Part shown: in pieces, positions 873 through 26,818 of the stretch
Numbering within the stretch: position 1 is the first letter of the stretch
Layout of the letters: every line of letters starts with the position of its first letter
Assembly (NCBI GenBank): GCA_029237825.1
Contig: JAQZBQ010000002.1
Span: forward strand, 372,001 to 436,000
From: Bacteroidota bacterium
GTDB lineage: Bacteria; Bacteroidota; Bacteroidia; B-17B0; Aurantibacillaceae
Reading direction: 5' to 3'
Length of the DNA stretch: 64,000 bases
The notes under the pieces: generated by a model
What the model saw: the letters and a program-made list of their open reading frames with translations, nothing else
Told to the model about the DNA's origin: nothing
The model's database searches: none
Made by a program: the position numbers and the translations under genes

Positions 873-1292
873 TTAAAACGGCAAACCATCTTTTTTGCCG
901 AGGTCGTCGAAATTGGCATTGTTATTTTCTTCTGAAATATTTGGGTTTGGAATGTTGCTGTCTTTTCGTTGAAGGACTAAAAACGACTCGCCAACAACTT
1001 CGGTGATATTGCGTTTGTTACCTTCTTTATCAATCCATTGCCGTGTTTGTAATTTCCCTTCCAGATATATCTGGGACCCTTTTTTCAATAGTTTTTCAGC
1101 ACTTTCAGCCATACTTCGCCAAACCACAATATTATGCCATTCTGTTTGTTCAATCCTATTTCCGTTTTTGTCTTTATGAAATTCACTGGTTGCAATACTG
1201 AAATTTGCCCGTGCGATGTTACCTTCAAGGTATTTTAATTCCGGGTCTTTACCCAGATTTCCCACTAATATTACTTTATTTATTCCTGCCAT
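873..1292 (-). CDS. ssb: Single-stranded DNA-binding protein
   Basis: A 139-residue SSB. The OB fold fills residues 1-105, with the usual opening AGINKVILVGNLGKDPELKY, the FSIATSE strand, the TEWHNIVVW strand and the KGSQIYLEGKLQTRQW strand. A short Asn-rich linker leads to the C-terminal tip DGLPF, the variant of the DDDxPF tail that recruits repair and replication partners. It coats single-stranded DNA during replication and repair. It is divergent from the UvrD-type helicase, with about 180 bp between the two starts, and is followed by gldD. A TTGCTTTG sequence about 37 bp upstream resembles a -7 element with one mismatch. Confidence 0.95.
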   Translation of the reverse strand: MAGINKVILVGNLGKDPELKYLEGNIARANFSIATSEFHKDKNGNRIEQTEWHNIVVWRSMAESAEKLLKKGSQIYLEGKLQTRQWIDKEGNKRNITEVVGESFLVLQRKDSNIPNPNISEENNNANFDDLGKKDGLPF

Positions 1293-1456
1293 AATCCGAG
1301 TTTGAAAGTGTTTTGATTTTTAACAAACAAAGCAACAATTTTTTATTTATGCAACTCGTTCATCTACATATATTGCCGGTTAATGTGAAAACAAAATAAT
1401 TGACAGGCGTTTACAAAAAATTATGTTTCTTCCCACGCAGAACCCCCATAATTCCG

Positions 1457-1464
1457 TAACTTTG
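1457..1464 (+). promoter_or_regulatory. -7 promoter element of the helicase gene
   Basis: TAACTTTG matches the Bacteroidetes -7 consensus TAnnTTTG exactly and ends 5 nt before the ATG at 1470. No TTTG is visible at the usual -33 distance. Placement implies transcription starting at or within a few bases of the start codon. Confidence 0.55.
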
Positions 1465-1469
1465 TAAGA

Positions 1470-3890
1470 ATGAGTGATTATTTAAATGAATTAAATCCGG
1501 TTCAAAGACTGGCCGCAGAAACAACAGAAGGCCCGGTTATGATTATTGCCGGAGCAGGTTCCGGAAAAACGCGTGTATTGACCTATCGTATTGCCCACAT
1601 TATGCAAAAAGGGAATGATGCGTTTAATATTTTGTCTTTAACTTTTACTAATAAAGCGGCTCGCGAAATGAAAGAGCGTATCGCTAAAATAGTGGGGAGT
1701 AAAGAAGCAAAGAATATATGGATGGGTACCTTTCACTCAATTTTTGCTAAAATTCTTCGTTTTGAAGCCGAGAAACTGGGATATCCCCCCAACTTTACAA
1801 TATACGATACCGATGATAGTAAAAGTGTGATTAAAGATATTTTAAAGCAGATGAACCTGGATGATAAGGTATATAAACCCTCATTGGTTTTAAACAGAAT
1901 TTCTTCTGCAAAAAATAGCTTGATATCTGCGAATCAATATGCAAATAACCCTATCACCCAGGCTGAAGACAGGGCTTCGAACAAACCTTTATTGGGACAG
2001 GTGTATCTTGCTTATCAAAAGCGGAACTTTAAATCGGGTGCCATGGATTTTGATGATTTGCTTTATAATACCAATGTGCTTTTACGCGACTTCCCGGAAA
2101 TATTAATCAAGTATCAAAGTAAATTCAAGTATATTCTGGTGGATGAGTACCAGGATACTAACTTTTCACAATATGTAATAGTTAAGCAACTTGCTGCCCG
2201 GTATCAAAATATTTGTGTGGTAGGTGATGATGCGCAAAGTATTTATTCATTTCGGGGAGCAAACATTCAAAACATCCTGAATTTTGAAAAGGATTATCCG
2301 GAATTAAAAACATTTAAGCTTGAGCAAAATTACCGCAGTACTCAAACTATAGTGAAAGCAGCGAGTGCGGTTATTGCTGTAAATAAGGACCAGTTTAAGA
2401 AAAATATTTTTACGGATAATGAAGAGGGTGAAAAGATCAAAATCATAAAGTCCAGTACGGATAATGAGGAAGGTCAGAAAGTTGCATCTGCGATATATGA
2501 AACGCATTACACACAGCAGGCGCATTATAAAGATTTTGCTATTCTATACAGAACCAATGCGCAGTCGCGTTCTTTTGAGGAAGCCATGCGTAAACTAAAC
2601 ATCCCTTATAGAATTTACGGTGGACTTTCGTTTTACCAAAGAAAAGAGATAAAGGACGCGTTGGCCTATTTCCGTTTATCCATTAATCATAATGATGACG
2701 AATCATTAAAACGTATTATTAACTATCCGACTCGTGGAATTGGTCAAACTACTATTGATAAAGTGATGCTTGCCGCAATGGAACATGATATCAGTATGTG
2801 GCAGGTGTTAGATAACCTTCGTGATTTTAACATCGGCATAAATAGCGGAACGGCACTGAAAATTTCGGAATTTACCACGATGATTAAAACGTTTTCTGCA
2901 ATGATTCCGTATAAAGATGCATTTGAATGCGCCAATCATATTGCGGTTACAAGCGGAATTGTTAAAGACCTTTATCATGATAAAACTCCTGAAGGCGTGA
3001 GTCGTTATGAGAACATTCAGGAATTATTAAATGGTATTAAAGATTTTGTGGAACAGGAGCGCTCGCCGCAGGAAGAAGAATTAAAGGAAGCAATCGCTAA
3101 TACTTTAGAAAAAAATCCAGTAGAATTATTTGATTCTGCAGAACAGAATCCCGAAATAAAGACACTGGATGAGTTTATGCAGGAAATTAGTTTATTAACG
3201 GATGTTGACAAGGAAAGTGAAGATGAAAAGAATTCCGACAAAGTTTCTATGATGACCATTCATGCGTCTAAAGGTTTGGAGTTTCCGTATGTTCATATTG
3301 TTGGTTTAGAAGAGAATTTATTTCCCTCTCAAATGGCTTTAAACAGCCGAAGTGAATTGGAGGAAGAAAGACGATTATTCTATGTTGCCATTACCAGGGC
3401 AGAGAAAAAGGCAACGATCAGTTTTGCTACAACCCGGTACCGCTTCGGAAATATTATTTATTGCGAGCCTAGCAGATTCATCGATGAACTTGACGAAAGC
3501 TGTGTAGATTTTCCCGTAGAACAAGAACGAAACAGGTTCAGTGACGGGGTGTTTTCGAAATCTTCTCGTTTTTCCCAGTCGCCCATAGATAGGGCGAATG
3601 TATCTACCAATAAAAATATTAGCCACGCAGAGCCAAAATCAATTAATTTTTCTCAACCAAAAAAATTGATCCCTCTCGCTAAACGCATGGCAGTTACAAA
3701 TACACCCACCGATAATAGTGCTAATGCTAAACTTCGTGTAGGTAGCGTTGTGGAACATGAGAAATTTGGTATTGGCGAAATTAGTGCAATTGAAGGTGTG
3801 TTTCCTGAAGCGAAAGCCAGTATTCAATTCAGAAACTCGGGAGAAAAAAATCTTTTGTTGAAATACGCGAAATTAAAGGTGGTGCTTTAA
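1470..3890 (+). CDS. uvrD: UvrD/PcrA-family superfamily 1A DNA helicase
   Basis: An 806-residue ATP-dependent 3'-5' helicase. The start LNELNPVQRLAAE is the Q-motif region, Walker A is GAGSGKT at residues 28-34, motif II is VDEYQDTN, motif III GDDAQSIYSFRGA, motif IV EQNYRST, motif V MTIHASKGLEFPYV and motif VI VAITRAEKK. This order and length fit UvrD/PcrA/Rep, which unwind DNA in nucleotide-excision and mismatch repair and remove recombination filaments. The C-terminal 60 residues, VGSVVEHEKFGIGEISAIEG and following, form the Tudor-like fold common in PcrA that contacts RNA polymerase. Divergent from ssb. The start is ATG with a -7 element immediately upstream. Confidence 0.93.
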   Translation: MSDYLNELNPVQRLAAETTEGPVMIIAGAGSGKTRVLTYRIAHIMQKGNDAFNILSLTFTNKAAREMKERIAKIVGSKEAKNIWMGTFHSIFAKILRFEAEKLGYPPNFTIYDTDDSKSVIKDILKQMNLDDKVYKPSLVLNRISSAKNSLISANQYANNPITQAEDRASNKPLLGQVYLAYQKRNFKSGAMDFDDLLYNTNVLLRDFPEILIKYQSKFKYILVDEYQDTNFSQYVIVKQLAARYQNICVVGDDAQSIYSFRGANIQNILNFEKDYPELKTFKLEQNYRSTQTIVKAASAVIAVNKDQFKKNIFTDNEEGEKIKIIKSSTDNEEGQKVASAIYETHYTQQAHYKDFAILYRTNAQSRSFEEAMRKLNIPYRIYGGLSFYQRKEIKDALAYFRLSINHNDDESLKRIINYPTRGIGQTTIDKVMLAAMEHDISMWQVLDNLRDFNIGINSGTALKISEFTTMIKTFSAMIPYKDAFECANHIAVTSGIVKDLYHDKTPEGVSRYENIQELLNGIKDFVEQERSPQEEELKEAIANTLEKNPVELFDSAEQNPEIKTLDEFMQEISLLTDVDKESEDEKNSDKVSMMTIHASKGLEFPYVHIVGLEENLFPSQMALNSRSELEEERRLFYVAITRAEKKATISFATTRYRFGNIIYCEPSRFIDELDESCVDFPVEQERNRFSDGVFSKSSRFSQSPIDRANVSTNKNISHAEPKSINFSQPKKLIPLAKRMAVTNTPTDNSANAKLRVGSVVEHEKFGIGEISAIEGVFPEAKASIQFRNSGEKNLLLKYAKLKVVL

Positions 3891-4016
3891 TCCGAAGCTT
3901 ATCATTCTATTTCCTCCAATCATTTCTTTGCCGAAAGGATATAAGGATTTTTTTATTTCATGTAACTGAATTTCTGCTTCGCAGTCGGAACTTTGTATAA
4001 ACCAATATTTAATGTT

Positions 4017-4181
4017 ATGAAAACGGAAATAATCAATATGGCTGGCAAAGGAAATAAGAGTGGGCACTCAAAAAGTCAGGATGTTTTAAAGAAAGGAAGC
4101 AGAAATAATGATATGGGTCTTTCCAAGAAAACCTCTACAACTGACGGAGGCTCTAAATCTAACAAAGCACGCCGTAAATAA
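4017..4181 (+). CDS. Small basic hydrophilic protein, unknown
   Basis: A small lysine- and serine-rich protein of 54 residues from the ATG at 4017, or 47 residues (MAGKGNKSGHSKSQ) from the ATG at 4038. It is rich in Lys, Gly, Ser and Asn, ends in KARRK, and has no predicted membrane segment or signal. A TTG further upstream at 3993 is unlikely as a start because it lies inside a GAACTTTG sequence that resembles a -7 promoter element. It is followed by another hydrophilic small gene 29 bp away and may form a pair with it. I do not recognise a family. It could be a disordered nucleic-acid-binding or stress protein, but that is only inferred from composition. Confidence 0.5.
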   Translation: MKTEIINMAGKGNKSGHSKSQDVLKKGSRNNDMGLSKKTSTTDGGSKSNKARRK

Positions 4182-4210
4182 TTTACAGCGCAAACTAAAA
4201 AATTGAAATC

Positions 4211-4546
4211 ATGAAAGAAAATGAAAAAAATAAGCCAATTGGTTTTAAAACCGATTCGCAGTCCGAGAAGGAGCAGGATCCTAAAAACAAAGATTCAAAA
4301 AATAATCAAACCGATAATCCTACCGATGTAAAAGATGGAGAGGAAGGTGAGATCAACAATCCTGAGAAGAACAGGGAACATGATGACCGTGACCATGAAC
4401 ACGATTATAAAACACCGGGAGATAATCCAAATAAAAATAAAGAACAAAATCAGGGCGAAGCGCATAATCAAAAGCCGAATCAAACCATTGATAAAACAAC
4501 TGGCAATCAAACCAGTAACAATCAGGGAATAGATCCGGGAAATTAA
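4211..4546 (+). CDS. Asn/Lys/Glu-rich disordered protein, unknown
   Basis: A 111-residue protein made almost entirely of N, K, D, E, Q, P, G and T, with no hydrophobic core. Runs such as KNKDSKNNQTDNPTD and GNQTSNNQGIDPGN indicate intrinsic disorder. No signal peptide is visible. It follows the small basic gene by 29 bp, has its own ATG after an AT-rich leader, and ends just before a strong bidirectional terminator. No family is recognised. The composition resembles hydrophilin-like stress proteins, and the neighbours (cold-shock and BON proteins) would fit, but this is inference. Low complexity makes the coding call less certain than for other genes. Confidence 0.55.
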   Translation: MKENEKNKPIGFKTDSQSEKEQDPKNKDSKNNQTDNPTDVKDGEEGEINNPEKNREHDDRDHEHDYKTPGDNPNKNKEQNQGEAHNQKPNQTIDKTTGNQTSNNQGIDPGN

Positions 4547-4562
4547 AATAACTGGTTTTAAT

Positions 4563-4602
4563 AAAAAAAGAGGCTATCTCACTTTTGAGATAGCCTCTTT
4601 GT
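4563..4602. terminator. Bidirectional intrinsic terminator
   Basis: A perfect 13-bp stem (AGAGGCTATCTCA at 4569-4581 with its complement at 4586-4598) with a 4-nt loop, flanked by an A-run on the left and T-run on the right. It serves both converging units: the small plus-strand genes and the minus-strand cold-shock gene. Confidence 0.9.
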
Positions 4603-4619
4603 ATTTACTAAACCGCTTA

Positions 4620-4808
4620 TTAGATCCGTGTTACATTTACAGCACTAAGGCCTTTTCTTCCTTCTTGCATATCAAAAGTTACTTCATCATTTTCCTGTAT
4701 TTCATGTATTAATCCAGTGGCGTGTACAAACACATCTTGACCGTTTTCACCTTTAATAAATCCGAAGCCTTTAGCATCGTTAAAAAATTTTACTGTTCCT
4801 TTATTCAT
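4620..4808 (-). CDS. cspA: Cold-shock protein (CspA family)
   Basis: A 62-residue cold-shock-domain protein. RNP1 is KGFGFI and RNP2 is DVFVHA, separated and positioned as in CspA. The family binds single-stranded RNA and DNA and melts RNA secondary structure. The ATG at 4808 (MNKGTVKFFND) is preferred over an upstream in-frame ATG at 4832, because the family starts with this segment. A CACCA-GAA-TGGTG hairpin lies just upstream at 4832-4844. A consensus promoter about 290 bp upstream predicts a long leader, as in other regulated cold-shock genes. Confidence 0.95.
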   Translation of the reverse strand: MNKGTVKFFNDAKGFGFIKGENGQDVFVHATGLIHEIQENDEVTFDMQEGRKGLSAVNVTRI

Positions 4809-5876: not shown

Positions 5877-6920
5877 TTATTTGTACGTAGGCTTGTTTAC
5901 ACTGTTTCCAAGCGATTTACCGTATCCGGGGCTTGTATTAAATCGCAGGCTGAATTCTAAACCGCCTTTAGCTTTTGAAACACCGGCAAGTTGAGATGTA
6001 TTAAGGTCATAACTTACACTAAAAGCATATTTGTCATATTGAAAAAGTAAGCTTGGGATAATAGCATCACCCACCCGATAAAAAGCACCCAATGCAATAG
6101 CACAAGGTTTTTTTATTCCGGTGTAAACCGATTGGTCCTGAATAATATATTTGAACATGCAACCCACATTAGTTTCCTGGGACGGCCCCTGGCGGGTATA
6201 AAGAAAACTTGGCACTATCGCCATTCCGGCATTTTTTATACCAATGTCGAAATTTGAATGCACTGCGAATTTTGCGAATTGTTTGTCGCCACTGTTTGTA
6301 AAGGAATAAGAGGGCATGTTATAATGGAATGCTGAAATCCCAATGTCAAATTTTGTTCCGTCCTGAGCGCTGATAAAACGTTCACTTTTAGCGTAATGGT
6401 AAGCCAAACCCCCAACGAAGTCGGCCTGCAAAAACGAACTTCGTGGCGTGGATTCACCTGAAGTAATCGCTCCGTCATAAACTGAACCATTGTATTGACT
6501 TTCCCATTGCAATTTAGAAGGGTTGATTGTTCTGTAATTTACGCCTCCTCCAATGCCTGCGGATAATTTTTCATATTTACCGGTTTTTATAACGGCATTA
6601 AAGCCAAGATTTACCAATAATGAACCCAGCCCAGCATCACCGGCTTTATCATTGTAAATGCTTAGGGACATTCCGGTATAAGCTTTTTTTAATTTTAAGT
6701 GTTTCAATGCGCGCTCAATGCTTATGCCATAAGTTTGGAACGGGCTGGTAACACTTGCCCATTGGTTTTTATAATTGGCAATAATCCGAGTATCAAACGC
6801 GGTGCAACTCATGGCTGGATTTATTAAAACCGGCGTTTCGTTGAATTGTGAAAAGTGAATATCCTGTGATTGCCCAGCATATGCTGAAATGAAAAGGATC
6901 GAACTTAATAGTTTTTTCAT
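5877..6920 (-). CDS. PorP/SprF-family type IX secretion membrane protein
   Basis: A 347-residue outer-membrane protein. A signal peptide (to AYAGQSQ) is followed by DIHFSQFNETPVLINPAMSC, the hallmark opening of the PorP/SprF family, then RIIANYKNQWASVTSPFQTYGIS. The rest is alternating beta-strand sequence ending in a barrel-like C-terminus. Members sit in the outer membrane and anchor or assist secretion of a partner T9SS adhesin. It begins 29 bp after the stop of the giant adhesin gene on the same strand, the same order as sprB-sprF, so the two are almost certainly one transcription unit and functional partners. Confidence 0.9.
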   Translation of the reverse strand: MKKLLSSILFISAYAGQSQDIHFSQFNETPVLINPAMSCTAFDTRIIANYKNQWASVTSPFQTYGISIERALKHLKLKKAYTGMSLSIYNDKAGDAGLGSLLVNLGFNAVIKTGKYEKLSAGIGGGVNYRTINPSKLQWESQYNGSVYDGAITSGESTPRSSFLQADFVGGLAYHYAKSERFISAQDGTKFDIGISAFHYNMPSYSFTNSGDKQFAKFAVHSNFDIGIKNAGMAIVPSFLYTRQGPSQETNVGCMFKYIIQDQSVYTGIKKPCAIALGAFYRVGDAIIPSLLFQYDKYAFSVSYDLNTSQLAGVSKAKGGLEFSLRFNTSPGYGKSLGNSVNKPTYK

Positions 6921-6948: not shown

Positions 6949-9900
6949 TTATCGCATTAACGTGATATTTCCTTTTAAATTAAATGATTGACCGTCAATT
7001 GAGATTCCATCGGCTTTATATACAAAAACACCTGTATCGAGCTTCTGCCCGCGGAAAGTTCCATCCCAGCTTTCTGTAAGTGAGGAAGTTTCAAAAACCT
7101 TCTCACCCCAACGGTTAAATATTTGCAGATTAAATGTTGAGATACAACGACCATGCACATTGATATAATCATTTAGTCCGTCACCGTTTGGTGAAAAAAC
7201 ATTTGGAATAAAAAAGTCACCGCAATTCACATCTACGGTAACCGTAACAGTATCCTGAACCTTACAGTAAATTGAATTTGAAATCACAACAATGTATTGC
7301 GTTGTTACAGTGGGTTGCACCACAGTATTTGAACACGTAGGGCATGCGATCGTACCATTTACATTGGGCGACCAAAGGTAACTTAAACCACCACTTGCAA
7401 AAATTTCTGCTGATTCGCCAATATTTATGGTGGTATCATTTCCGGCTAATCCTATTGGGTAATCAAAAACGCTAACAAAATTGTTTTTTACCACCGTATC
7501 TATCCCGCAGGCATTTTCTGCGACCATCATTACCGAAAAACTTCCCGCAGAAGGATAACAGGCTTCTGGGGCAACTCCTACAGAAGATGTGCCAACTCCC
7601 ACTTCATAATACCATTTATAAGCAATTGGGGAACTTCCTGTTGTAGTTGAACTGAAGGTTACACATCCACCGGTACAAATAGTGTCGTTATTAAGCGTCA
7701 TGAAATTTCCAATGGGCGGTGTTCGAACACCGATTTGAATTGTATTGGTTCCTATGCATACACCATTGGAGATTGTAACAGTGTAGATGACTGACGAAGT
7801 AGAAGGCGGACTCGCAACTATGCTTGCGGTATTGCTTGCGCCAATAATAGCAGAAACGGGTTGCCAGGTATATGTGAGGCCGCTCGCTGCGGGTGAAGAG
7901 ATGCTGACTGTTTTAGTAAGACAAACAGTAGGACTTGAAGCTGTTAATGTAGGATTAATTGTAGGCAAAACACTTACTGTAATCACTGCCGGCACTTCCA
8001 GGCAACCCTGGCTGGTTTGACCAATTACAGTATATGATGTCGTACTAGTTGGATTAACAAACAGTGTAGGAGTAGTTACAGAGCCAGAGGACCAGGTATA
8101 GGTTGCGGCTCCCGAGGCTGTAAGAGTAGAACCAGTACCACCAACACAAATAACAGAATGACTCATGGAGGCGGTCACCGTACTCATGGGTGGAACATTA
8201 ATCGATACTGTATCGGAAGATGTACAGCCGCTGGAAGTCCCCGTTACCGTATAGATAGTGGATATGGTGGGACTTGCTGTTACCACTGAGCCCGACGTTG
8301 CGCTTAAGCCGTTAGACGGCGACCAGGAATACGTTGATGCTCCATTGCCTGTTAAAGTAACTGAAGGTACGCCCACACAATAGACAGATGAGCTTGACGA
8401 AGCGGTAGTAGTAATAGTGGTTGTATTTATGGTAGCAGTGGCATTTCCAAGACATGTACCATCTGTTCCTATAACTGTGTAAGTAGTTTGAGAAGTAGGT
8501 ACTGCGGTAAACGTTGATCCGGTACTGAAACCGGGTACCCATGTATAACTGCTAGCGCCGGAAGCGGTTAAAGTAGCGGTATTTCCAAGGCAAATAGTTG
8601 TATTGGATGGAGATATGGAAACCGTTAAATTCGGAGAAATACTCACATTAGCGACAGCTTGTGCGGTACATGCTCCGGTCCCTGCCAGTACTGTATAGCT
8701 TGTAGTTATCGTCGGAGATACAACCACTGTGCCGGTAGGCGACGGATTAGAACCCGAGCTGGGGGTCCAAACAAATGGACCTGAGCTTCCGCTTACACTT
8801 AAAGTGGAAGACTGGCCAGCACAGATAAGCGTAGGCGTTACTACAACACTAATAGATAAAGTAGGTGTTATGGATACAGTTGACACGGCTTGTGCAGTGC
8901 AAGCGCCAGTTCCCGAAATTACGGTATACGTGGTAGTGGATCCAGGGGTAACGGTTACAGTTTGGGCCGAAGCAGGATTGGTTCCGGAACTGGCCAACCA
9001 GTTAAAGGGCCCAGGGCCGCTCGCTGAAAGTGTTGCACTTTGTCCTAAGCAAATGGATGTAAGAGATGGCGTTATTGCAATTGTTGACGGCGGGCCAACA
9101 TTTACTGTAGCCACCGCAGTGGCGGTGCAACTTCCTGAACCAGATAACACCGTATATGTGGTAGTGGAAGCCGGTGTCACTGTAACATTAGCCGCACTTG
9201 TTGGATTAGCACCACTGCTGGCAGTCCACGTAAATGGACCAGCCCCGCTGGAGGACAAAGCCTGGCTTTGCCCATTGCAGATGGTTGATACAGACGGTGT
9301 AATATTGATTGAGGGTGTTGTTGAAATTGAAACCGTGGCAATAGCTGAGCTTGTGCAGGTACCAGCGCCCGAAACAACCGTGAAGGATGTGGTTGTAGCG
9401 GGAGTAACGGTTACTGTTGCCGCCGCAGGAGGGTTGGCACCACTGCTTGCTGTCCAGGTGAACGGTCCTGTTCCACTGGCACTTAATACCTGGCTTTGTC
9501 CAGCGCAAATGCTGGTGATTGAGGGTGTGATTGCCGTAGTTGGAGTTGCGGATACCGAAACAGTTATCACCGTTGAGCTAACACAGGATCCGACTGTTTT
9601 CGTAACGGTATAATTTGTTGTAGTGGTTGGAGAGGCCGCTGTGACTGAAGAAGAGGGGGACGTTAGCGATGACCCCGGTGACCAGGAATAGGTACCGGCA
9701 CCTCCATTAGCGGTTAAAGTTACCGATTGACCAGCACAAATTGATCCCGCAGGTGTTTGCGTTACTGGAAGTGCGGGTGGTGGTGTAAATGTGAGGGTGG
9801 TTGTTTTAACAATAGCTGTGCCAGGGCACGTATTTACATCGGAATAGGAAAGAGTATAGATTGTTGTACCTGTAGGATTTGCAGTAACTACCGTTCCGGT

Positions 9901-10821
9901 AGTGGCAGTTAAACCTCCCGTTGCAGGAGCCGACCAGGTGTAGGTACCGGATGGAGCAGCGCCGGCAGCGGTTAAGGTCACGGTTTGCGCGCCGCATATT
10001 GTTGAAGGACTTACCGCAGCTGTTATCGTTGGGGATCCTATACAGGATATTCCATTCACATCTAAAAATACGCCAGAATCATATAAATCATCACCCACAT
10101 CCCAAACCCCAATGGTCATGGTATATTGGCTACACGGAATAACCTGGGTACTAGCTGTCAATACCGTAGTGGATCCATCGTAAACCATACCTGCAGGAGA
10201 ACTTACGTAATACGAACAATTTGTACAAGTTGCCGGAAGAAACGGTGGAAACCCAGGATCATAATTCACATTATCAATGGAAACCGGTAGGTTTGTTCCA
10301 GGAACTAAAGCAATGTTTGTTTGATTATAGCTTCCACCAAGTGGATTTGGGCCATCGATAACGAAACCAAATACATCGGAAACTCCGCCACCCACATTTT
10401 CCGGGTATTCCTCTGAAGCGAAAACATATTTGATGGAAAGGGTGTTACAACTTGGTGTAATCATAAATTTTATGGAACATTCGTCGTTTGTACCGTTTCC
10501 TGATTGATCAAGGTTATCTCCAACAGCAGAGCCTGGTGTTCCGTTAGAATAATCCTGATTTACACCAGAGGGTTGAACATTAGCCGCAGAGCCCGTTGTA
10601 AGTAGAATTCCGGATGATAAGCCTGACAAAGCCCCTGTTCCGCCACTATACAAGGCATAAGCGCCTGACGGGCAGGTGAGTACAACGCCACTGATGGTGA
10701 TTCCGTTGCCGCTCAGCTTCTGTGTAATTTGCGCAATCGTCGGGTTTACCGTGGTTGTTACCTGCGCTAAGCTCACCGCGGTTAATGCAAAAAATGTAAA
10801 AAACAAATAAAGTTTTCTCAT
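6949..10821 (-). CDS. Giant repeat adhesin with CHU_C gliding-motility C-terminus
   Basis: A 1290-residue secreted protein from the ATG at 10821 (MRKLYLFFTFFALTAVSLAQ, a clear signal peptide); a longer frame to 10881 adds a non-signal leader and is rejected. Residues about 22-260 form a choice-of-anchor L domain (SIKYVFASEEYPENV, SDVFGFVIDGP). Residues 268-1035 contain ten degenerate Ig-like repeats of about 76 residues, each with IC-x-GQ near the start and TTTYTV before a second Cys. A PKD-like module follows (1040-1120), then a further beta module and the CHU_C domain (about 1200-1290: FIPNVFSPNGDGLNDY, IFNRWGEKVFE, WDGTF, GVFVYKA), which directs T9SS export and surface attachment. Its likely role is adhesion or gliding, with the adjacent PorP/SprF protein as partner. 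Confidence 0.92.
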   Translation of the reverse strand: MRKLYLFFTFFALTAVSLAQVTTTVNPTIAQITQKLSGNGITISGVVLTCPSGAYALYSGGTGALSGLSSGILLTTGSAANVQPSGVNQDYSNGTPGSAVGDNLDQSGNGTNDECSIKFMITPSCNTLSIKYVFASEEYPENVGGGVSDVFGFVIDGPNPLGGSYNQTNIALVPGTNLPVSIDNVNYDPGFPPFLPATCTNCSYYVSSPAGMVYDGSTTVLTASTQVIPCSQYTMTIGVWDVGDDLYDSGVFLDVNGISCIGSPTITAAVSPSTICGAQTVTLTAAGAAPSGTYTWSAPATGGLTATTGTVVTANPTGTTIYTLSYSDVNTCPGTAIVKTTTLTFTPPPALPVTQTPAGSICAGQSVTLTANGGAGTYSWSPGSSLTSPSSSVTAASPTTTTNYTVTKTVGSCVSSTVITVSVSATPTTAITPSITSICAGQSQVLSASGTGPFTWTASSGANPPAAATVTVTPATTTSFTVVSGAGTCTSSAIATVSISTTPSINITPSVSTICNGQSQALSSSGAGPFTWTASSGANPTSAANVTVTPASTTTYTVLSGSGSCTATAVATVNVGPPSTIAITPSLTSICLGQSATLSASGPGPFNWLASSGTNPASAQTVTVTPGSTTTYTVISGTGACTAQAVSTVSITPTLSISVVVTPTLICAGQSSTLSVSGSSGPFVWTPSSGSNPSPTGTVVVSPTITTSYTVLAGTGACTAQAVANVSISPNLTVSISPSNTTICLGNTATLTASGASSYTWVPGFSTGSTFTAVPTSQTTYTVIGTDGTCLGNATATINTTTITTTASSSSSVYCVGVPSVTLTGNGASTYSWSPSNGLSATSGSVVTASPTISTIYTVTGTSSGCTSSDTVSINVPPMSTVTASMSHSVICVGGTGSTLTASGAATYTWSSGSVTTPTLFVNPTSTTSYTVIGQTSQGCLEVPAVITVSVLPTINPTLTASSPTVCLTKTVSISSPAASGLTYTWQPVSAIIGASNTASIVASPPSTSSVIYTVTISNGVCIGTNTIQIGVRTPPIGNFMTLNNDTICTGGCVTFSSTTTGSSPIAYKWYYEVGVGTSSVGVAPEACYPSAGSFSVMMVAENACGIDTVVKNNFVSVFDYPIGLAGNDTTINIGESAEIFASGGLSYLWSPNVNGTIACPTCSNTVVQPTVTTQYIVVISNSIYCKVQDTVTVTVDVNCGDFFIPNVFSPNGDGLNDYINVHGRCISTFNLQIFNRWGEKVFETSSLTESWDGTFRGQKLDTGVFVYKADGISIDGQSFNLKGNITLMR
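7717..10020 (-). repeat. Ten tandem Ig-like repeats, about 228 bp each
   Basis: Coding repeats inside the adhesin. The first conserved Cys of each unit falls at residues 276, 362, 439, 515, 591, 667, 744, 815, 892 and 967, so the period is 71-86 residues and mostly 76. Units 3-6 are the most alike (GPFTWTASSGANP and close variants) and look recently duplicated; outer units are more diverged. Confidence 0.85.
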
Positions 10822-10991
10822 ATGTGATGTTTTGTTAACTGTAAACATGTTATAAATATAATCAAAGCCGCCAGCTTGCACAAATTATTATAAACTCTAT
10901 CGAGTAAGGCAATCAATTAACTTAGTCAAGTATTCTATGACGCCTACCTTTATTTTAGGTGAAAATCAGTATCTTCAACCAAATTAAAAAA

Positions 10992-11858
10992 ATGATCCAG
11001 ATAGGAAGAACCAATAATTTAACCATTTTACGCCAAACCCCTCCTGGAATGTATTTAGGCGATGACGAAAACGAAGTGGTGCTGCTACCAAATAAATTTA
11101 TTGAACCTGATTTTAAAGTTGGAGATAAGATTGATGTTTTTATATATCGGGATTCAGAGGACCGTTTAATAGCAACACGGTTTAAACCTTTTGCAGAGGT
11201 AAATCAGTTTGCGTTTTTGTGTGTTTCGGAAGTTTCAAAGATTGGAGCGTTTTTAGACTGGGGACTGGAAAAAGATTTGTTTGTTCCGTTCAAAGAACAG
11301 AAACAAAAAATGATTGAAGGACATAGCTACGTAGTATATATTTATGTTGACGAACTTAGCGAGCGTATAGTTGCGTCGAGTAAAATCAATAAGTTTATCA
11401 GTAACGAAGTGTTAAAGGTTGAACAAGGGCAGGAGGTTGATTTATTAGTGTATAACGAAACAGACCTGGGCTTTACCTGCATTATTAATGGGATGCATAA
11501 GGGTTTAATTTATCATAATGATGTATTTACGGATTTAGCAATTGGCGACCAAACAAAAGGTTTTATTAAACTGATAAGGGAAGGAAATTTGATTGACTTA
11601 AGTTTACAAAACCTTGGATTCAAGAATGTTCTTTCCTCTACAGAAAAAATCCTGGATTATTTGAATAAGCACGAGGGTTATCTCGAGCTCACCGACAAAA
11701 GCTCGCCAGACCTTATTGAAAGGAGATTTGACATGAGTAAATCAACATTCAAAAAATCGATCGGTGTTTTATATCGTCAACGTAAAGTGACACTACATGA
11801 AGATGGAGTACGGCTTGTGAACACAAACGACGGTGATACTACTAATCAAAAAGTTTAG
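10992..11858 (+). CDS. CvfB-like S1 RNA-binding protein
   Basis: A 288-residue protein from the ATG at 10992 (MIQIGRTNNLTILRQTPPGMYL), the usual family start; a GTG at 10959 would add eleven unrelated residues. It shows the CvfB/YitL layout: an S1-like barrel with the DDENEVVLLPNKF segment, a second S1 domain (about 60-130: GAFLDWGLEKDLFVPF), a third (about 140-200: VDLLVYNETDLGFTCIINGMHKGLIY), and a C-terminal winged-helix (YLELTDKSSPDLIERRFDMSKSTFKKSIGVLYRQRKV). CvfB in Staphylococcus binds RNA and affects virulence gene expression; the role here is unknown. Its stop lies 2 bp from the stop of the convergent permease gene. Confidence 0.85.
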   Translation: MIQIGRTNNLTILRQTPPGMYLGDDENEVVLLPNKFIEPDFKVGDKIDVFIYRDSEDRLIATRFKPFAEVNQFAFLCVSEVSKIGAFLDWGLEKDLFVPFKEQKQKMIEGHSYVVYIYVDELSERIVASSKINKFISNEVLKVEQGQEVDLLVYNETDLGFTCIINGMHKGLIYHNDVFTDLAIGDQTKGFIKLIREGNLIDLSLQNLGFKNVLSSTEKILDYLNKHEGYLELTDKSSPDLIERRFDMSKSTFKKSIGVLYRQRKVTLHEDGVRLVNTNDGDTTNQKV

Positions 11859-11860
11859 TT

Positions 11861-13084
11861 TTATTCGTTTAAATGTACGAGGTCGTTCCTGGTAAATACT
11901 CTTACGGGATATACTGCAGCCACAAAACCGATCGCCATCACAACTCCTAATATCCAAATGAAATCGTTCAACTGCATCTTTATTGGATAATAGGGAATCA
12001 CCGACATGTCATCAAAGGTAACAAGATGGTATTTTTGTTGCAGGAGGCAAACAATCAACCCGATAACGAGGCCACAAATAGCCCCAACGGAAGTAATCAG
12101 GAAGCCTTCTTTCATAAATATCGTTCGAATAAGTGTTTGGTCAGCCCCAAGATTATAAAGCGTTTTGATATCTTTCTTCTTCTCAATGATCAGCATGGTA
12201 AGGGCGCCAATGATATTAAATGTGGCAATTACCAATATAAATGCAAGGATTAGAAACGTCCAGAGTTTTTCTGTTTCCAGTGTTTTGAATAAGACATCAT
12301 TTAACTGGTATCTGTTTTTAATGAGGTATTCAGGGCCTAATACTTCCTGTAGTTTCTCCTGAACGGTTTTCAAGTCATTCTTATTGGATACGCTTAATTC
12401 AACGAGTGAAAATGCGTCAGGACAATCGAATAACTTTTGAGCCGCTTGCAAATCAATTAAAACGAACTTGTAATCAAAATCGTCGTTTAATGAAAAAATG
12501 CCACTAGGGCTAATGGAAATTTTATTGAAGGCGTCTTCCGGATTAATACTTTCAACTTTCCCTCTTACTGGTGCGTATAAAGAAATGGGAGTTACGAAAT
12601 CGTTTATATTAATATCCATTTTATTGGCTACTCCGCGTCCAAAAACACCATAATATTGGTTTTCGTAAAAAAAACGGTATGAGCCCTGCACAACAACTGT
12701 GTCAAAATGCGTTAATTTCCTAAATGCATCATCAACACCTTTTATAGTTACTACCGCCTGGCGGTCATCGAGTTTTATAAGGGCGTTTTCTTCAATTGAA
12801 AATGAGACAGCATCAATTCCTTTTACAGAGTTTATCTTGCTCAAGAGTTTCTCGTCAAAAGTCATATATTTTGAATTGACTGAACTGATTTTCAGATCGG
12901 GCTCAATGGCATGGTACAAATCGGCTACAACAGAAGTGAGTCCGTTCATAGCGGAAAGAACGATAATCAAAGCCGCCGTGGTAATAGCTATCGCAACAAT
13001 ACTTATCCATGAAATGACATTGATAGCATTGTTAGATTTTTTGGAAATTAAATAACGCCTGGCTATGAAAAACGAAAGGTTCAA
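11861..13084 (-). CDS. LolC/E-type ABC transporter permease (FtsX/MacB family)
   Basis: A 407-residue inner-membrane protein. It opens NLSFFIARRYLISKK and one membrane helix (about residues 20-48), continues with a periplasmic MacB-type domain (about 50-265), and ends with three helices in the FtsX domain (about 275-400; TLYNLGADQTLIRTIFMKEGFLI is the coupling-helix region). In Bacteroidota this family is thought to act in lipoprotein release from the inner membrane. It starts at TTG (13084); the encoded N-terminus fits the family, supporting that start. The ATPase partner is not adjacent. It lies downstream of rbfA in the same direction, with a plus-strand gene inserted between them. Confidence 0.85.
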   Translation of the reverse strand: MNLSFFIARRYLISKKSNNAINVISWISIVAIAITTAALIIVLSAMNGLTSVVADLYHAIEPDLKISSVNSKYMTFDEKLLSKINSVKGIDAVSFSIEENALIKLDDRQAVVTIKGVDDAFRKLTHFDTVVVQGSYRFFYENQYYGVFGRGVANKMDININDFVTPISLYAPVRGKVESINPEDAFNKISISPSGIFSLNDDFDYKFVLIDLQAAQKLFDCPDAFSLVELSVSNKNDLKTVQEKLQEVLGPEYLIKNRYQLNDVLFKTLETEKLWTFLILAFILVIATFNIIGALTMLIIEKKKDIKTLYNLGADQTLIRTIFMKEGFLITSVGAICGLVIGLIVCLLQQKYHLVTFDDMSVIPYYPIKMQLNDFIWILGVVMAIGFVAAVYPVRVFTRNDLVHLNE

Positions 13085-18264: not shown

Positions 18265-21200
18265 TTAAAAAGCGCGATTAATTCCTACCATCCACCTGAA
18301 TTGGAAATAATCCTTTTCAGCAAATGGCAATCGGTTGATGAACAATGGCATATCGAAACGAATAGTAAGGGGTTTAATACCATAAAGCGGCCCCCATTTT
18401 TGAATACTTACTGCAACACCCACGCCTGCGTCTGCAATGATATCTGACATAACTGTTGCTTTAGTTGGTGCGTTCGTATTGATGGTTCCCGCATCACCAA
18501 AAAGATAGGGATTAATTTTAAGGGTATTGTTTAATTTTTTAATGTTCATGAAACCAAACAATTCTCCAAATTCAATTTCAACACTAGCAGAGGCTCCTGT
18601 TGTACCTTTATAATTGCTTACAATAAGCCCTTTATCATCTGTTGCGGTTAAGACATATCCTGAATAACCCCTTAAATTTAGTCCGCCACCGGATGTGAAG
18701 TGATTCGTCATTGCACCGTATTGCCCCCATTCAGGTGGGATGAAACCCATTGAACGGGTATACTTATTTTCCATCAGGTCTTCCGGATTGGCCCCCGCAG
18801 CAAACAACATAGATTCATCAGCTAGTTTTGTGCCGAACCCTAATTGTGCAAATACGCGGGTGTTGAGGTTGATTTTCCCAAGATCATTTTTATTGATGGC
18901 AGTGTATTGAAGATTTGAATAATCATAATCACGCGTTAGGGCGCTGGCACGCATGTTCAGGTTCATGAAGCCAATACCTCTATGGTAATTATAATTATGA
19001 TCTATACCAACATTTAAATAGCTGTTCATTTTTTGAATTTGCCATTCATTTCGGTTAATCAAATAAACCAAATCATTTGGCATATCCCTGACCATTGCCT
19101 TATACTGAATATAAATCCTGTTTTTGTCGTTATTGCTCTTCTTCTCGAAGCCCACCAAACCGCTTTCCAAACCATCCAATGATTTTAAAGTCATGTATAC
19201 ATTTGATTTTTTAATAAATTTTGATGTGGAAGTTCTGTAGTTTAAGAGGAAGGAAAAAACATTATAGTTATTAATTTTATCTGTACTGTCAAGATAGGCT
19301 TGACCTAAACCAGAACTAAACCAGGTCGTTATATCAAATACATGTTTGGTGTTCATGTAACCACCATTTAAATGGGCGCCGATTTTTATACCATCGTAAC
19401 CATTATACCAAAGGCTCGGGCGTGCTTTTAATTCATAATGTTTCCAATCTAACGGATTATAAATTTTCGAGTCGAATGTAACATTCACTTTATGATGTTT
19501 TACATTGTTCATCATATCAACATCTGCCAATCTTCTTGATGGATCAATGATGACATTTTTTAACTTTCCTTCAACTTTTACTTTTGCAGTATATGTTGGT
19601 TTTACTTTCCCCCATCCAATCCATCTCGGCAATACGTTTGATTTTACAGGTTTTTCAAACCAGGTATTTGGGATGTAATAATGGTAGGCTGAATCGTTTT
19701 TATCTAGCACCGTAAAATCAATAGGCATCTGCATATCACCTTTACGTTTAAATTTTATGAAATACTCTCCTTTTTCTTTTCCCTTTTTTATACGCCCAAT
19801 TTTATAATCAATTTTTTTGGTGGTTTCCAACCATTGGTCAAAAAACCAGTTTAAATCAACGCCGCTATATTGAATGACAGAATTCCTGAAATCCTCCGGG
19901 TAAGGATGGGCAAATTTCCATTGGTTAAAATAGTGCTGCATACATTTGTCAAAAAGAGCACGGCCTAAAACATATTCCAGGTTTTTTAACATCGCAGCGG
20001 TTTTTGTATACACGGCACTGTATCCGCCACCATGGCGAATTCCTCCATTATAGTCATCACTATGTGTATTTAAAGTCACTTCTTCGCCACGCACAGTAAC
20101 GGCATTCATATAACCGTTATAAATCTGGTCATCGAGGATTCGGTTTTGCTCTGTAAACCTTCTAACATATTTACTTTTTGGTTGCTGTTCAATTTTATTT
20201 GGACCATCAATGAATTGGTAAGTGTCCGCAGTATAAAACTGTGTGAAACCTTCATCTAAAAATGCACGGTAGGTTTCATTGTTACCTACCATTCCAAAGA
20301 ACCAGTTATGCGTTACTTCATGAATCAGTAAATCCCTGTAGTTTGGGTCATAACCGCCATCCAGGGTAAGCATCGGATATTCAACTCCATCCTGGGCATC
20401 GGCACAAATAATTTTAGGATAATGATAAGGTCCAATATTATAAGAATTCACTTCAAGGATTTTTGCGATGTATTGAGGACAGCTTTGCCACCCGGCCGCA
20501 TGTGGTTCCTGAACCAACGCAACGCACTTAACTCCATGCCAGTTATATTCACCAATGCGGTAGGTAGGATCAGCGGTAAGTGCAAAGTCGTGAACATTAA
20601 GCGCTGAAAATTTCCACGTTTTTGTGCTGCCATCCCGTTTAATAATTGTGCTTGGGGGCGAATTCCAGGGTTTCTTTGCGAAATTAGCAATGTCTAATTT
20701 TTGACGAAGAGAATCAGGCAACACTTCATGTTCGTTTTGCAGTATTCCAGTTGCGTCCAGTACGTAATGGTTTGGTAAGGTAAATTCAATATAGAACGAA
20801 CCAAAATCCCCGTAAAACTCATGATCCATATGTTGGTCGGTGTCCCAACCAAACTTCCTGTCGTACACAGAAATTCTTGGATACCAATGTGTAACATCAT
20901 AATGCTTATTACCAAAAGCGTTAAACATTTTCATACGGTTTCGAATTACTTCCCTTGCGTAATACGTTTTAAAATCAATGTTGAAGGTGATGGATTCGCC
21001 CGGTTTAAGCGGACGCTCAAGGTGTACCTTCAAAATGGTGTTGTCAAGTTCCGTTTTTAATTCAATATTTCCAGTTTTAACGCTCAGTACTTCTGTTCCC
21101 TTTCCATCTTTACGGTGCTTGTTAAATTTAAGGTGGTAGTTGTTATTCTTGTATAGGTCTGCCAGGTAAGAATCTTTTGTTTGGGCATTGTTATAAAGAT

Positions 21201-21459
21201 GGAAATAAACAAAATACAATTCTTTTGGAGAATTATTCCAATAGGTCAATTCCTCATAACCGGTAATAATATCTGAGGTATCATTTAAAGATGCTTTTAT
21301 TGAATAATGCACATCCTGTTGCCAGTAATCGGCAAATGGCTTTCTGTTTTTCCAATACAATGGATTGGTTTGAGAACGGTAATCAATGTATTCGTTTTGA
21401 GCATCGATGCTTGAAACAAAAATAAACACGATGAAAAGTAGTAGAAAATTTTTCTTCAT
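18265..21459 (-). CDS. M1-family metallopeptidase with putative C-terminal Omp85-like barrel
   Basis: A 1064-residue protein with a signal peptide (to SSIDAQ). Residues about 40-620 are an M1 aminopeptidase: the zinc motif HEVTH at 380-384 with the third ligand Glu403 exactly 19 residues on, GVEYPM in the place of GxMEN, and a Tyr-rich segment near 478. Residues about 670-1064 are alternating aromatic beta-strands with Omp85-like marks: LRGY at 929-932 (the L6 motif of BamA/TamA is VRGF or similar), FGDAG around 989, and a final strand FQFRWMVGINRAF ending in Phe. I infer a peptidase anchored in the outer membrane by a barrel. It is read before the flavoprotein gene (3-bp gap). The peptidase part is firm; the barrel is inference. 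Confidence 0.82.
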   Translation of the reverse strand: MKKNFLLLFIVFIFVSSIDAQNEYIDYRSQTNPLYWKNRKPFADYWQQDVHYSIKASLNDTSDIITGYEELTYWNNSPKELYFVYFHLYNNAQTKDSYLADLYKNNNYHLKFNKHRKDGKGTEVLSVKTGNIELKTELDNTILKVHLERPLKPGESITFNIDFKTYYAREVIRNRMKMFNAFGNKHYDVTHWYPRISVYDRKFGWDTDQHMDHEFYGDFGSFYIEFTLPNHYVLDATGILQNEHEVLPDSLRQKLDIANFAKKPWNSPPSTIIKRDGSTKTWKFSALNVHDFALTADPTYRIGEYNWHGVKCVALVQEPHAAGWQSCPQYIAKILEVNSYNIGPYHYPKIICADAQDGVEYPMLTLDGGYDPNYRDLLIHEVTHNWFFGMVGNNETYRAFLDEGFTQFYTADTYQFIDGPNKIEQQPKSKYVRRFTEQNRILDDQIYNGYMNAVTVRGEEVTLNTHSDDYNGGIRHGGGYSAVYTKTAAMLKNLEYVLGRALFDKCMQHYFNQWKFAHPYPEDFRNSVIQYSGVDLNWFFDQWLETTKKIDYKIGRIKKGKEKGEYFIKFKRKGDMQMPIDFTVLDKNDSAYHYYIPNTWFEKPVKSNVLPRWIGWGKVKPTYTAKVKVEGKLKNVIIDPSRRLADVDMMNNVKHHKVNVTFDSKIYNPLDWKHYELKARPSLWYNGYDGIKIGAHLNGGYMNTKHVFDITTWFSSGLGQAYLDSTDKINNYNVFSFLLNYRTSTSKFIKKSNVYMTLKSLDGLESGLVGFEKKSNNDKNRIYIQYKAMVRDMPNDLVYLINRNEWQIQKMNSYLNVGIDHNYNYHRGIGFMNLNMRASALTRDYDYSNLQYTAINKNDLGKINLNTRVFAQLGFGTKLADESMLFAAGANPEDLMENKYTRSMGFIPPEWGQYGAMTNHFTSGGGLNLRGYSGYVLTATDDKGLIVSNYKGTTGASASVEIEFGELFGFMNIKKLNNTLKINPYLFGDAGTINTNAPTKATVMSDIIADAGVGVAVSIQKWGPLYGIKPLTIRFDMPLFINRLPFAEKDYFQFRWMVGINRAF

Positions 21460-24408: not shown

Positions 24409-25179
24409 TTGTATTGTGTATGCTATAAATTATTAGTAATTTTAATCATCAGACATTTCAGGAATATAGTTGTTTTTCTCGCTTTTTTCGGGCTGTTAGC
24501 GTGTAAAAAGAAAGTTGAAGAGGCTCCGGACGTAGGATACGATTATGCTCCCACGGTGCTGGGAAAATTTATTGTTTACGATGTGGATTCTACGGTTTAT
24601 GATGACAATAATATGGATACCATCAATTACCGGTACCGCATTAAGGAAAAGCTTGAAGAAAATTTTTTTGATAATGAAGGCAGAGCTGCCGTAAAATTGG
24701 TTCGGTATATAAAAAAATACAATCCATTAGTGAGTTATGATAATATACCCTGGAGTTTAAAGGATGTGTGGAGTGTCGTAAAAACCACTACCACTTTTGA
24801 AGTAGTAGAAGAGGACGTGAGGTTTACCAAATTGGTGTTTCCGGTTAGGGAAGCTGCTGAATGGAATGGAAATGCATTTAACACTTTGGGTGAATGGCCT
24901 TATACGTATTTATATACAGATCGGAAAGAAATGATCAATGGTTCAACCTTTGACAATGTATTGTGCGTGGAGCAGAAGGATGATAAGCGAAAAAATGCCA
25001 TTCATCGCCAGTACTTTATTGAAAAGCACGCTAAAAATATCGGATTGGTTTACCGAGAAATCAAAGATCTATATTCAAATACTATTAAAGTAAGTGGAGG
25101 AGCTGTTACGCCGGTTGAAACGCGTATTGAAAAAGGAATTATATTTAAACAATCTTATATCACACATGGAACTGAATAA
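24409..25179 (+). CDS. Lipoprotein of unknown function
   Basis: A predicted outer-membrane lipoprotein of about 235-256 residues. The segment NIVVFLAFFGLLACKKK is a signal peptide with a lipobox ending in LLAC. The start is uncertain: TTG at 24409 is the longest option but overlaps a TTATTTTG sequence that resembles a -7 promoter element, and no ATG occurs before the lipobox. The mature protein is acidic and aromatic, with no domain I recognise. Its stop lies 14 bp inside the following subtilase gene, so the two are translationally coupled. Role unknown; partnership with the protease is likely from the overlap. Confidence 0.7.
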   Translation: MYCVCYKLLVILIIRHFRNIVVFLAFFGLLACKKKVEEAPDVGYDYAPTVLGKFIVYDVDSTVYDDNNMDTINYRYRIKEKLEENFFDNEGRAAVKLVRYIKKYNPLVSYDNIPWSLKDVWSVVKTTTTFEVVEEDVRFTKLVFPVREAAEWNGNAFNTLGEWPYTYLYTDRKEMINGSTFDNVLCVEQKDDKRKNAIHRQYFIEKHAKNIGLVYREIKDLYSNTIKVSGGAVTPVETRIEKGIIFKQSYITHGTE

Positions 25180-26818
25180 ACTTCGCATCGCTCTTTTATC
25201 CTGCTTTATTTTCACATTAACCGGATCGTCTTTTGCACAAACTCCTTCAAAATACTGGGTGCGATTCAAAGACAAAAACGGGTCACCCTATTCAGTCTCC
25301 ACTCCAACCGCATACCTTTCTCAAAAATCGATCGACAGACGGGTTGCGCAGGGAATTGCTATTGATATTACTGACATTCCTGTTAACCAATCTTATATCA
25401 ACCAGGTAAATAGCACAGGAGCCCAGGTTTTTCAGCGTTCTAAATGGATGAATGCAGCGATCGTGGTAGTAACCAACACAGTTCAATTGGCCGCAATTAA
25501 TAGCCTCACCTGCGTTTTAGGATCTCAACGGGTAGGTAAACTCATTAAAACAAGTGATCCAACGGTATATTCAGTTTATGATCAACAGGTTCATAAAGCC
25601 TCACAAAACACCGCGTATAATTACGGACCTTCATTTACGCAAAACGCTCAAATTGGGGCAGATTGCCTTCATGAGAATGGATACCGGGGTCAAAACATGA
25701 CGATAGGAGTTCTTGATTCAGGCTTTGATAATGTAAATAATAACGATGTGTTTGATTCCCTTAGAAACGAAGGAAGAATTCTTGGAACCCGCGATATTGT
25801 CGCCGGCAATTCATCCGTTTATGAAGACCATGATCACGGGGCGATGGTTTTATCCTGCATATCAGGTAACACGCCGGGGCAATTGATTGGTACCGGACCA
25901 AAAGCTCAAGTGTATTTAATACGTACAGAAGATGTTTATTCAGAAAAACCAATTGAGGAGAATAACTGGATCGTAGGTGCAGAGTATGCCGATAGTGTAG
26001 GGGTGGATATTGTGACCACATCCCTGGGGTATACAACGTTTGATAGTCCGTATACCAGTCACGTTTACAGTGATTTAAACGGAAGAACCGCCCCGATGTC
26101 TGTTGCAGCTACTATGGCAGCCAGAAAAGGGATATTTGTTTTGAATGCTGCCGGAAATGACGGAAACGGTGCTTGGAACTATATTGGAATTCCAGCTGAT
26201 GCAGATAGCATCTGTACTGTTGGATCGGTTGACGGTTCGGGCAACCATTCGGGATTTAGTTCAGTTGGGCCAACTGCTGATGGAAGGATTAAGCCTGATT
26301 TGAGCTCGATGGGTCAAGGTTCATATGTATGTTCGCCATCTGGCAGTTTTTTTGGAGGTAATGGGACATCTTTCGCTACGCCTATTCTTGCAGGTGCAGT
26401 TGCATGCTTATGGCAGGCGAATCCAACCCGAACCAATATAGAAATTTTAAATGCATTAAAAACCACAGCGTCCAGATCTTCAAACCCGGATAATAATTTT
26501 GGCTGGGGTATCCCAAATATGTGTGAGGCTCATAATTTGCTAAACGGAACATCGTTAGGGGTATCCAATCCTGCGACTTCAGTACAATTTAAGCTGTATC
26601 CAAATCCCGCACAGAGCGAATTGCGTTTTTCATCTCCAAAAGAAGTAGAAGAAATTTTTTTAGGTGACGTGCTTGGAAGGTTAATCCCTTTCAACCTTCA
26701 ATCTTTGGCAAAAAATGAATACAAGGTTGTTTTTGCTGAAGAAATGGTGCCGGGTGTATATATTCTTTCCATTAAGTCTGACGGCGGAATCATCAACAGT
26801 AAATTTATAAAAGAATAA
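25166..26818 (+). CDS. S8-family subtilisin-like protease with T9SS type A domain
   Basis: A 550-residue secreted serine protease from the ATG at 25166, followed by a signal peptide (to SSFAQ); a longer frame adds a non-signal leader. The catalytic triad is visible: Asp184 in GVLDSGFD, His224 in DHDHGAMV and Ser402 in GTSFATP, with Asn331 (NAAGND) as the oxyanion residue. Residues 30-130 look like a short prodomain-like segment. The C-terminal 70 residues form a T9SS type A domain (FKLYPNPAQSELRF, GVYILSIK, ending KFIKE). It is predicted to cross the outer membrane by T9SS. Its start overlaps the stop of the upstream lipoprotein by 14 bp; an intrinsic terminator follows. Confidence 0.92.
   Translation: MELNKLRIALLSCFIFTLTGSSFAQTPSKYWVRFKDKNGSPYSVSTPTAYLSQKSIDRRVAQGIAIDITDIPVNQSYINQVNSTGAQVFQRSKWMNAAIVVVTNTVQLAAINSLTCVLGSQRVGKLIKTSDPTVYSVYDQQVHKASQNTAYNYGPSFTQNAQIGADCLHENGYRGQNMTIGVLDSGFDNVNNNDVFDSLRNEGRILGTRDIVAGNSSVYEDHDHGAMVLSCISGNTPGQLIGTGPKAQVYLIRTEDVYSEKPIEENNWIVGAEYADSVGVDIVTTSLGYTTFDSPYTSHVYSDLNGRTAPMSVAATMAARKGIFVLNAAGNDGNGAWNYIGIPADADSICTVGSVDGSGNHSGFSSVGPTADGRIKPDLSSMGQGSYVCSPSGSFFGGNGTSFATPILAGAVACLWQANPTRTNIEILNALKTTASRSSNPDNNFGWGIPNMCEAHNLLNGTSLGVSNPATSVQFKLYPNPAQSELRFSSPKEVEEIFLGDVLGRLIPFNLQSLAKNEYKVVFAEEMVPGVYILSIKSDGGIINSKFIKE

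Follow-up and report, generated by a model that had tools for sequence, protein, structure and literature searches.

The question raised by this locus is whether a single gene in the stretch of DNA analyzed here (64 kb, the window) encodes both a zinc peptidase and an outer-membrane barrel, and, if it does, on which side of the membrane the enzyme would work and what the barrel would do for it. The initial annotation had proposed an M1 metallopeptidase fused to an Omp85-type barrel, analogous to the patatin-Omp85 fusions, and this proposal is now supported by fold matches and by homologues with both parts. By computation, the gene product is an M1-type zinc peptidase joined to an Omp85-type barrel, in a conserved architecture.

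A conserved fused gene

The features of the gene are the following.

18265–21459, minus strand: whole gene, M1 peptidase plus Omp85-type barrel (1064 aa, ATG start, fused frame kept in relatives)
21400–21459, minus strand: probable Sec signal peptide, residues 1–20, without a lipobox cysteine (from the sequence; helix 3–19 in the model)
19525–21324, minus strand: M1 peptidase module, residues ~46–645 (PF01433; 1z1w fold match; ends of short homologues)
20374–20388, minus strand: GVEYP, residues 358–362, at the presumed position of the GxMEN exopeptidase motif (conservation of E360)
20308–20322, minus strand: zinc motif HEVTH, residues 380–384 (conservation of H380, E381, and H384)
20251–20253, minus strand: third zinc ligand, Glu403 (conservation in aligned rows)
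18268–19437, minus strand: Omp85-type 16-strand barrel, residues 675–1064 (models, fold matches, TamL profile match)
18598–18825, minus strand: long loop between strands 11 and 12, residues 879–954, at the Omp85 L6 position (strand lists)
18664–18675, minus strand: LRGY, residues 929–932, VRGF/Y-like (R930 in 22 of 30 rows)
18487–18501, minus strand: FGDAG, residues 987–991, in strand 13 (D989 in 27 of 30 rows, G991 in 29 of 30)
18268–18297, minus strand: C-terminal strand to Phe1064, residues 1055–1064 (F1064 in 19 of 30 rows; strand 1057–1060)

The cleavage site of the signal peptide is one that we infer from a reading of the sequence. As to the integrity of the frame, homologues keeping both parts are found across relatives: among the matches listed, 48 of 60 genomes, own genome included, match the query to residue 1060 or beyond, most of them in single frames of ~1000–1190 aa. 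An artefact of frame or assembly was rejected, since the fused frame is conserved across these relatives. The same genome carries two further homologues, in frames of 1042 aa (L002) and 787 aa (L003).

The peptidase half

Pfam recognizes one domain in the protein, Peptidase_M1 (PF01433), at residues 375–543 (E 1.1e-14, 55 bits, cut-off 27.7), and three M1 models of NCBIfam are matched far under their cut-offs. A further NCBIfam match, to T9SS_sortase_N (E 0.024, 14.8 bits versus a cut-off of 40), was taken as chance and not as a part of a type IX secretion system. When the protein is searched by sequence against solved structures, the matches listed are ten M1 sequences, the best at E 0.063, and comparison of the full-length model with solved folds places tricorn factor F3 first (1z1w; Z 30.7 over 463 residues at 3.0 Å), with M1 enzymes only among the matches listed, which is why the barrel was folded and searched by itself. 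The M1 aminopeptidases, of which tricorn factor F3, ERAP1, and leukotriene A4 hydrolase are examples, share with this protein the N-terminal, catalytic, and beta-sandwich parts, along with the zinc site. Classical M1 enzymes, however, carry a helical C-terminal domain, which is replaced here by the membrane barrel, and GVEYP or GMEYP stands at the place that we take to be that of their GxMEN motif. The short M1 family metallopeptidases of Bacteroidota (~610–690 aa) possess the same peptidase module but not the barrel.

The zinc site, of the HEXXH-(18)-E type, is found where the initial annotation had placed it (HEVTH 380–384 and Glu403), with H380, E381, H384, and E403 all present and invariant in 30 of 30 aligned long proteins. 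In a larger alignment the long rows keep H380 and H384 in 57 of 59 cases and E381 in all 59, while E403 and, in the GxMEN-like motif, E360 are kept in 58 and 57 of these, respectively, and in all 54 short rows. Judged by these residues, the active site is intact; we infer an aminopeptidase specificity for the M1 half.

The barrel half: predicted structure

The region of about residues 670–1064 had been read as a barrel from its strand pattern and motifs, and both AlphaFold models agree. The full-length model (30-row alignment A2) has a mean pLDDT of 85.7 and a pTM of 0.81, and the model of residues 655–1064 alone (alignment A4) a mean pLDDT of 86.2 and a pTM of 0.84; the two use related alignments, and the rows of A1, A2, and A4 were hand-picked as long members. 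The strand lists of both, read by eye, give 16 barrel strands between residues 675 and 1060, the last one short, a count that leaves aside a strand at 658–662 before the barrel and three strands of 3–4 residues within the long loop. The predicted structure is thus a 16-strand barrel in both models, and a soluble C-terminal domain was rejected accordingly.

LRGY and FGDAG are correctly placed and correctly read in the initial annotation, as is Phe1064 as the last residue. We take their places to be those of the Omp85 motifs VRGF/Y (in the loop between strands 11 and 12) and FxDxG (in strand 13), and in close relatives a conserved stretch precedes LRGY in the long loop. With the barrel model as the query, Foldseek gives 95 matches at E<=0.001, of which the best 50 consist entirely of TamA and BamA chains, topped by TamA (4c00, E 1.6e-9) and BamA, at moderate TM-scores of 0.37–0.49 by query length. 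The 50 VIA matches listed are chains of mitochondrial SAM, BAM, and TamA structures at Z 18.0–20.8. A 16-stranded outer-membrane barrel of the Omp85 fold is described as the defining feature of the superfamily (PMC4104836).

The barrel half: sequence evidence

Fold matches leave the question of whether the relationship can be recognized from sequence. In this respect PF01103 itself matches neither the protein nor 20 long homologues (alignment A1) at E<=1, and a PF01103 search of the genome places nothing at the position of the gene at E<=0.01, while the fold search and a TamL profile are both positive. No Pfam barrel family matches the protein or the 20 long homologues, nor does Pfam find a POTRA domain in any of them, and the region upstream of the barrel is common to short M1 proteins that have no barrel.

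The sequence evidence comes from profile comparison. Omp85 proteins of related genomes were collected with PF01103 and divided into BamA-like (n=12) and TamL-like (n=14) sets. Comparison of the barrel profile with the TamL set by hhalign gives a match of Prob 95.8, E 8.3e-9, and score 71.5, versus control scores of 16.9 for the reversed profile, 27.3 for the best of 30 column shuffles, 18.2 for the M1 half, and 14.2 for PorP. The latter, a PorP/SprF-type outer-membrane protein of the type IX secretion system, is itself encoded in the window (5877–6920, minus strand; PF11751, E 5.3e-36). It entered the comparison as a single sequence, as did L145, an Omp85 protein of 430 aa, which scored 34.9 (Prob 30.7). 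Against BamA of the same genomes the barrel profile scores 20.1, with no sequence similarity, but BamA and TamL, a true pair, score just 33.6, so that this miss says little.

Not every subgroup carries the similarity to TamL when taken alone. Four of eight do so to varying degrees (far 88.0, close 47.2, Rhodothermal 37.9, and f13 90.6), while the other four show none (other 6.0, paralogue 4.4, f22-type 0.9, and f21 0.1%); for each of the f13, paralogue, f22-type, and f21 groups, one or more of the remaining M1-barrel groups is matched above 90. The reverse search, with the barrel profile against genomes, met proteins of 733–803 aa. Six of these were compared with the TamL set by BLAST, and all matched it (E 9e-28 to 4e-119); all three submitted to Pfam possess Omp85 and POTRA domains.

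The alternative that the C-terminal part is a barrel of another type, or a soluble beta domain merely resembling Omp85, may draw on the lack of a match to any Pfam barrel family and on the moderate TM-scores, but it would have to account for sixteen strands in both models, for fold matches that are all Omp85 among those listed, and for a match to TamL made from sequence in both directions, and we consider it most improbable. The Omp85 assignment rests on the fold, the TamL profile similarity, and the motifs, because PF01103 gives no match; taken together, these data support a POTRA-less, TamL-related Omp85 barrel.

Distribution and history

The M1-barrel fusion is old and common. The query is matched at E<=1e-10 in at least 195 of 296 genomes of the phylum, this count being a lower bound, as at most two candidates per genome were scored, and the barrel is matched at the same threshold in 166 of 295 genomes of the class, with most of the listed places in frames of ~1000–1190 aa. 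The family set consists of 124 rows, of which 3 are cut by contig ends and 121 were classed by length, as 54 short (~606–693 aa), 66 long (~975–1138 aa), and one of 769 aa; the length estimate wrongly counted as long one protein (L189) whose true frame is 614 aa. The short M1 homologues end at about query residue 653, at the edge of the barrel.

On a tree of the M1 half (114 rows) the division into long and short proteins takes two changes, of which one stems from a short row whose frame is broken by an in-frame TGA (L027), suggesting that the architecture changed rarely. The long rows of this tree are labelled Bacteroidota, Rhodothermota, Ignavibacteriota, Calditrichota, Fidelibacterota, and Krumholzibacteriota. 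Both this tree and that of the barrel are quick trees with long branches; the former omits the three rows cut by contig ends (L094, L047, L098) and the near-copies L113–L119 and leaves L079 unplaced, and the latter omits L189, L190, and one row of middle length.

No operon partner emerged from clustering of the neighbors of 17 loci and the window, as none is common to more than 5 of the 18. Among plasmid records, 24 have a match, none of which spans 80% of the query. In a single genome two genes of the M1-barrel type lie head to tail (L021, G164:C11:139335-144610).

Barrels without an active peptidase

Not all barrels of this family are joined to a working enzyme. One example is presented by the stand-alone barrels, in frames of 400–472 aa, found with the barrel profile in 29 of 198 genomes of the phylum at E 1.1e-39 or better. 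By the rows listed, 25 of these genomes belong to group f24 and 4 to f22, and 21 of the loci (L159–L175, L177–L180) form one group on the barrel tree, adjoining the fused barrels. Pfam gives no match for the three stand-alone barrels submitted to it. Group f24 is probably Balneolaceae, as the M1 tree has five rows from it, all of them short, and a Balneola protein clusters with one of these. The possibility that a stand-alone barrel adjoins a peptidase of its own was rejected for the loci scanned (L160, L165, L170, L172, L177, and L178), since the neighbors submitted to Pfam include no M1 protein; Pfam recognizes acetate kinases at L160, L170, and L178, a polysaccharide-synthesis protein at L172, and caspase-like and epimerase-like proteins at L165, and the neighbor at L177 has no match.

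Another example is a protein (L189; genome G335, 1100–2920, minus strand) whose barrel is 40% identical to that of the window and from which the M1 half is missing, the N-terminal part being ~200 aa without a Pfam match. A third example is a full-length protein (L190; genome G332, 1616–4657, minus strand) that has lost HEXXH and has an M1 match below the cut-off, a probable pseudopeptidase, to judge from its residues, on an intact barrel. As far as their sequences go, these two are the two long rows that fail in several active-site columns. That barrels occur alone, with a degenerate M1 half, or with none suggests that the barrel probably does more than anchor the enzyme.

These natural variants also bear on the alternative of a barrel that is itself active in assembly or translocation, as other Omp85 factors are, with the peptidase as an accessory that processes clients or peptides at the gate. 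This reading has on its side the stand-alone barrels, L190 with its degenerate M1 half, and the M1-less L189, as well as the maintenance of VRGF/Y-like and FxDxG-like motifs (R930 and D989, at the frequencies given above). It appears distinctly unlikely all the same: no POTRA domain was found, the same genome has BamA- and TamL-type Omp85 hits for these tasks, and PlpD uses such a scaffold for an enzyme. A related proposal assigns these proteins to an old subfamily of Omp85, not recognized by Pfam, that Bacteroidota share with related phyla and whose barrel would be a real gate for translocation or assembly, working together with an aminopeptidase in the periplasm. We regard it as rather unlikely, though a function of the barrel's own would explain why barrels exist by themselves, joined to a dead peptidase, or lacking M1. 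If it were true, peptides or client proteins would be processed while crossing or entering the outer membrane.

Comparison with known systems

The closest parallel is provided by the patatin-Omp85 proteins (PlpD of Pseudomonas aeruginosa and FplA of Fusobacterium, "type Vd"), which likewise consist of an N-terminal enzyme and a C-terminal Omp85 barrel. The enzyme differs, however, being an M1 zinc peptidase here and a patatin lipase there, and a Pfam patatin match is absent from the protein of the window; PlpD also has a POTRA domain, while none is found in the M1-barrel protein. By sequence profile the closest barrel is that of TamL, a TamA-like Omp85 lipoprotein of Bacteroidota, but TamL has POTRA domains in the place where the M1 peptidase stands. 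PF00149, which marks the "Metallo" subfamily of Omp85, is presumably the metallophosphatase family and not M1. TamL is described as carrying a lipid anchor (PMC12045153). Section 10 of one review of the superfamily distinguishes ten Omp85 subfamilies, including patatin, WD40, "Metallo" (PF00149), and noNterm, and describes no M1 fusion among them (PMC4104836). As presented there, "Metallo" and noNterm are also POTRA-less Omp85 barrels, the former joined to a hydrolase domain, and it is the latter that the stand-alone barrels described above resemble.

The open-access papers that literature searches listed, judged by title and abstract opening, include no M1 peptidase with an Omp85 or other outer-membrane barrel, although an earlier description may exist elsewhere. 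The part of the literature that we found holds few enzyme-Omp85 fusions, while the M1-barrel fusion is common (more than half of the class genomes, as counted above) and old. Pfam and NCBIfam report just the M1 half, the barrel going unrecognized by protein-family databases. The protein represents an enzyme-Omp85 fusion with another enzyme, without POTRA, that is common and has been only half annotated. It suggests that the outer membrane has a proteolytic unit not yet studied, and its natural variants (fused, apart, with a degenerate active site, or with M1 missing) offer a means to probe the role of Omp85 barrels beyond assembly.

Side of the membrane and proposed role

An outer-membrane anchor need not imply surface display: in PlpD, whose layout is the analogy used here, the enzyme domain is reported to reside exclusively in the periplasm (PMC11116518). 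A barrel with an even number of strands has both ends on the same side of the membrane, which, in combination with the PlpD result, favors a periplasmic enzyme over one displayed at the surface. The ~30-residue linker that leads into strand 1 decides nothing, as it would not in itself bar passage through the barrel.

Surface display would mean that the barrel carries the M1 half outside, in the manner of type Vd autotransport, for the digestion of external peptides. PlpD has been cited, in an earlier view, as bringing its enzyme to the surface (section 10 of PMC4104836), the short linker could thread a barrel, and no POTRA domain is there to keep the N-terminus periplasmic. However, in addition to the periplasmic location of the PlpD enzyme, FplA is cited as undetected on the surface (PMC11116518), a folded M1 module of ~600 aa would need to cross, and no passenger mark was found in the sequence, and we therefore consider surface display unlikely.

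It seems probable, instead, that the protein is an M1 peptidase on a POTRA-less, TamL-related barrel, anchored on the periplasmic side of the outer membrane and trimming short peptides. The protein would be exported by Sec and its barrel inserted into the outer membrane by BAM, with the folded peptidase remaining in the periplasm, presumably below the mouth of the barrel. There the enzyme would trim short peptides N-terminally, the likely substrates being peptides imported through the outer membrane or leftovers of envelope proteases. The barrel would at least anchor the enzyme and may also feed or gate it.

Other features of the window

A subtilase with a type IX secretion sorting tail is encoded at 25094–26818 (plus strand), so that the genome exports peptidases by another route too. 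At 50453–52546 (minus strand) lies a gene for a LigD-type protein with ligase and primase-polymerase domains. The G+C content reaches 0.444 within 8001–12000, under a frame of 1310 aa (6949–10881), the other 4-kb blocks ranging from 0.358 to 0.413.
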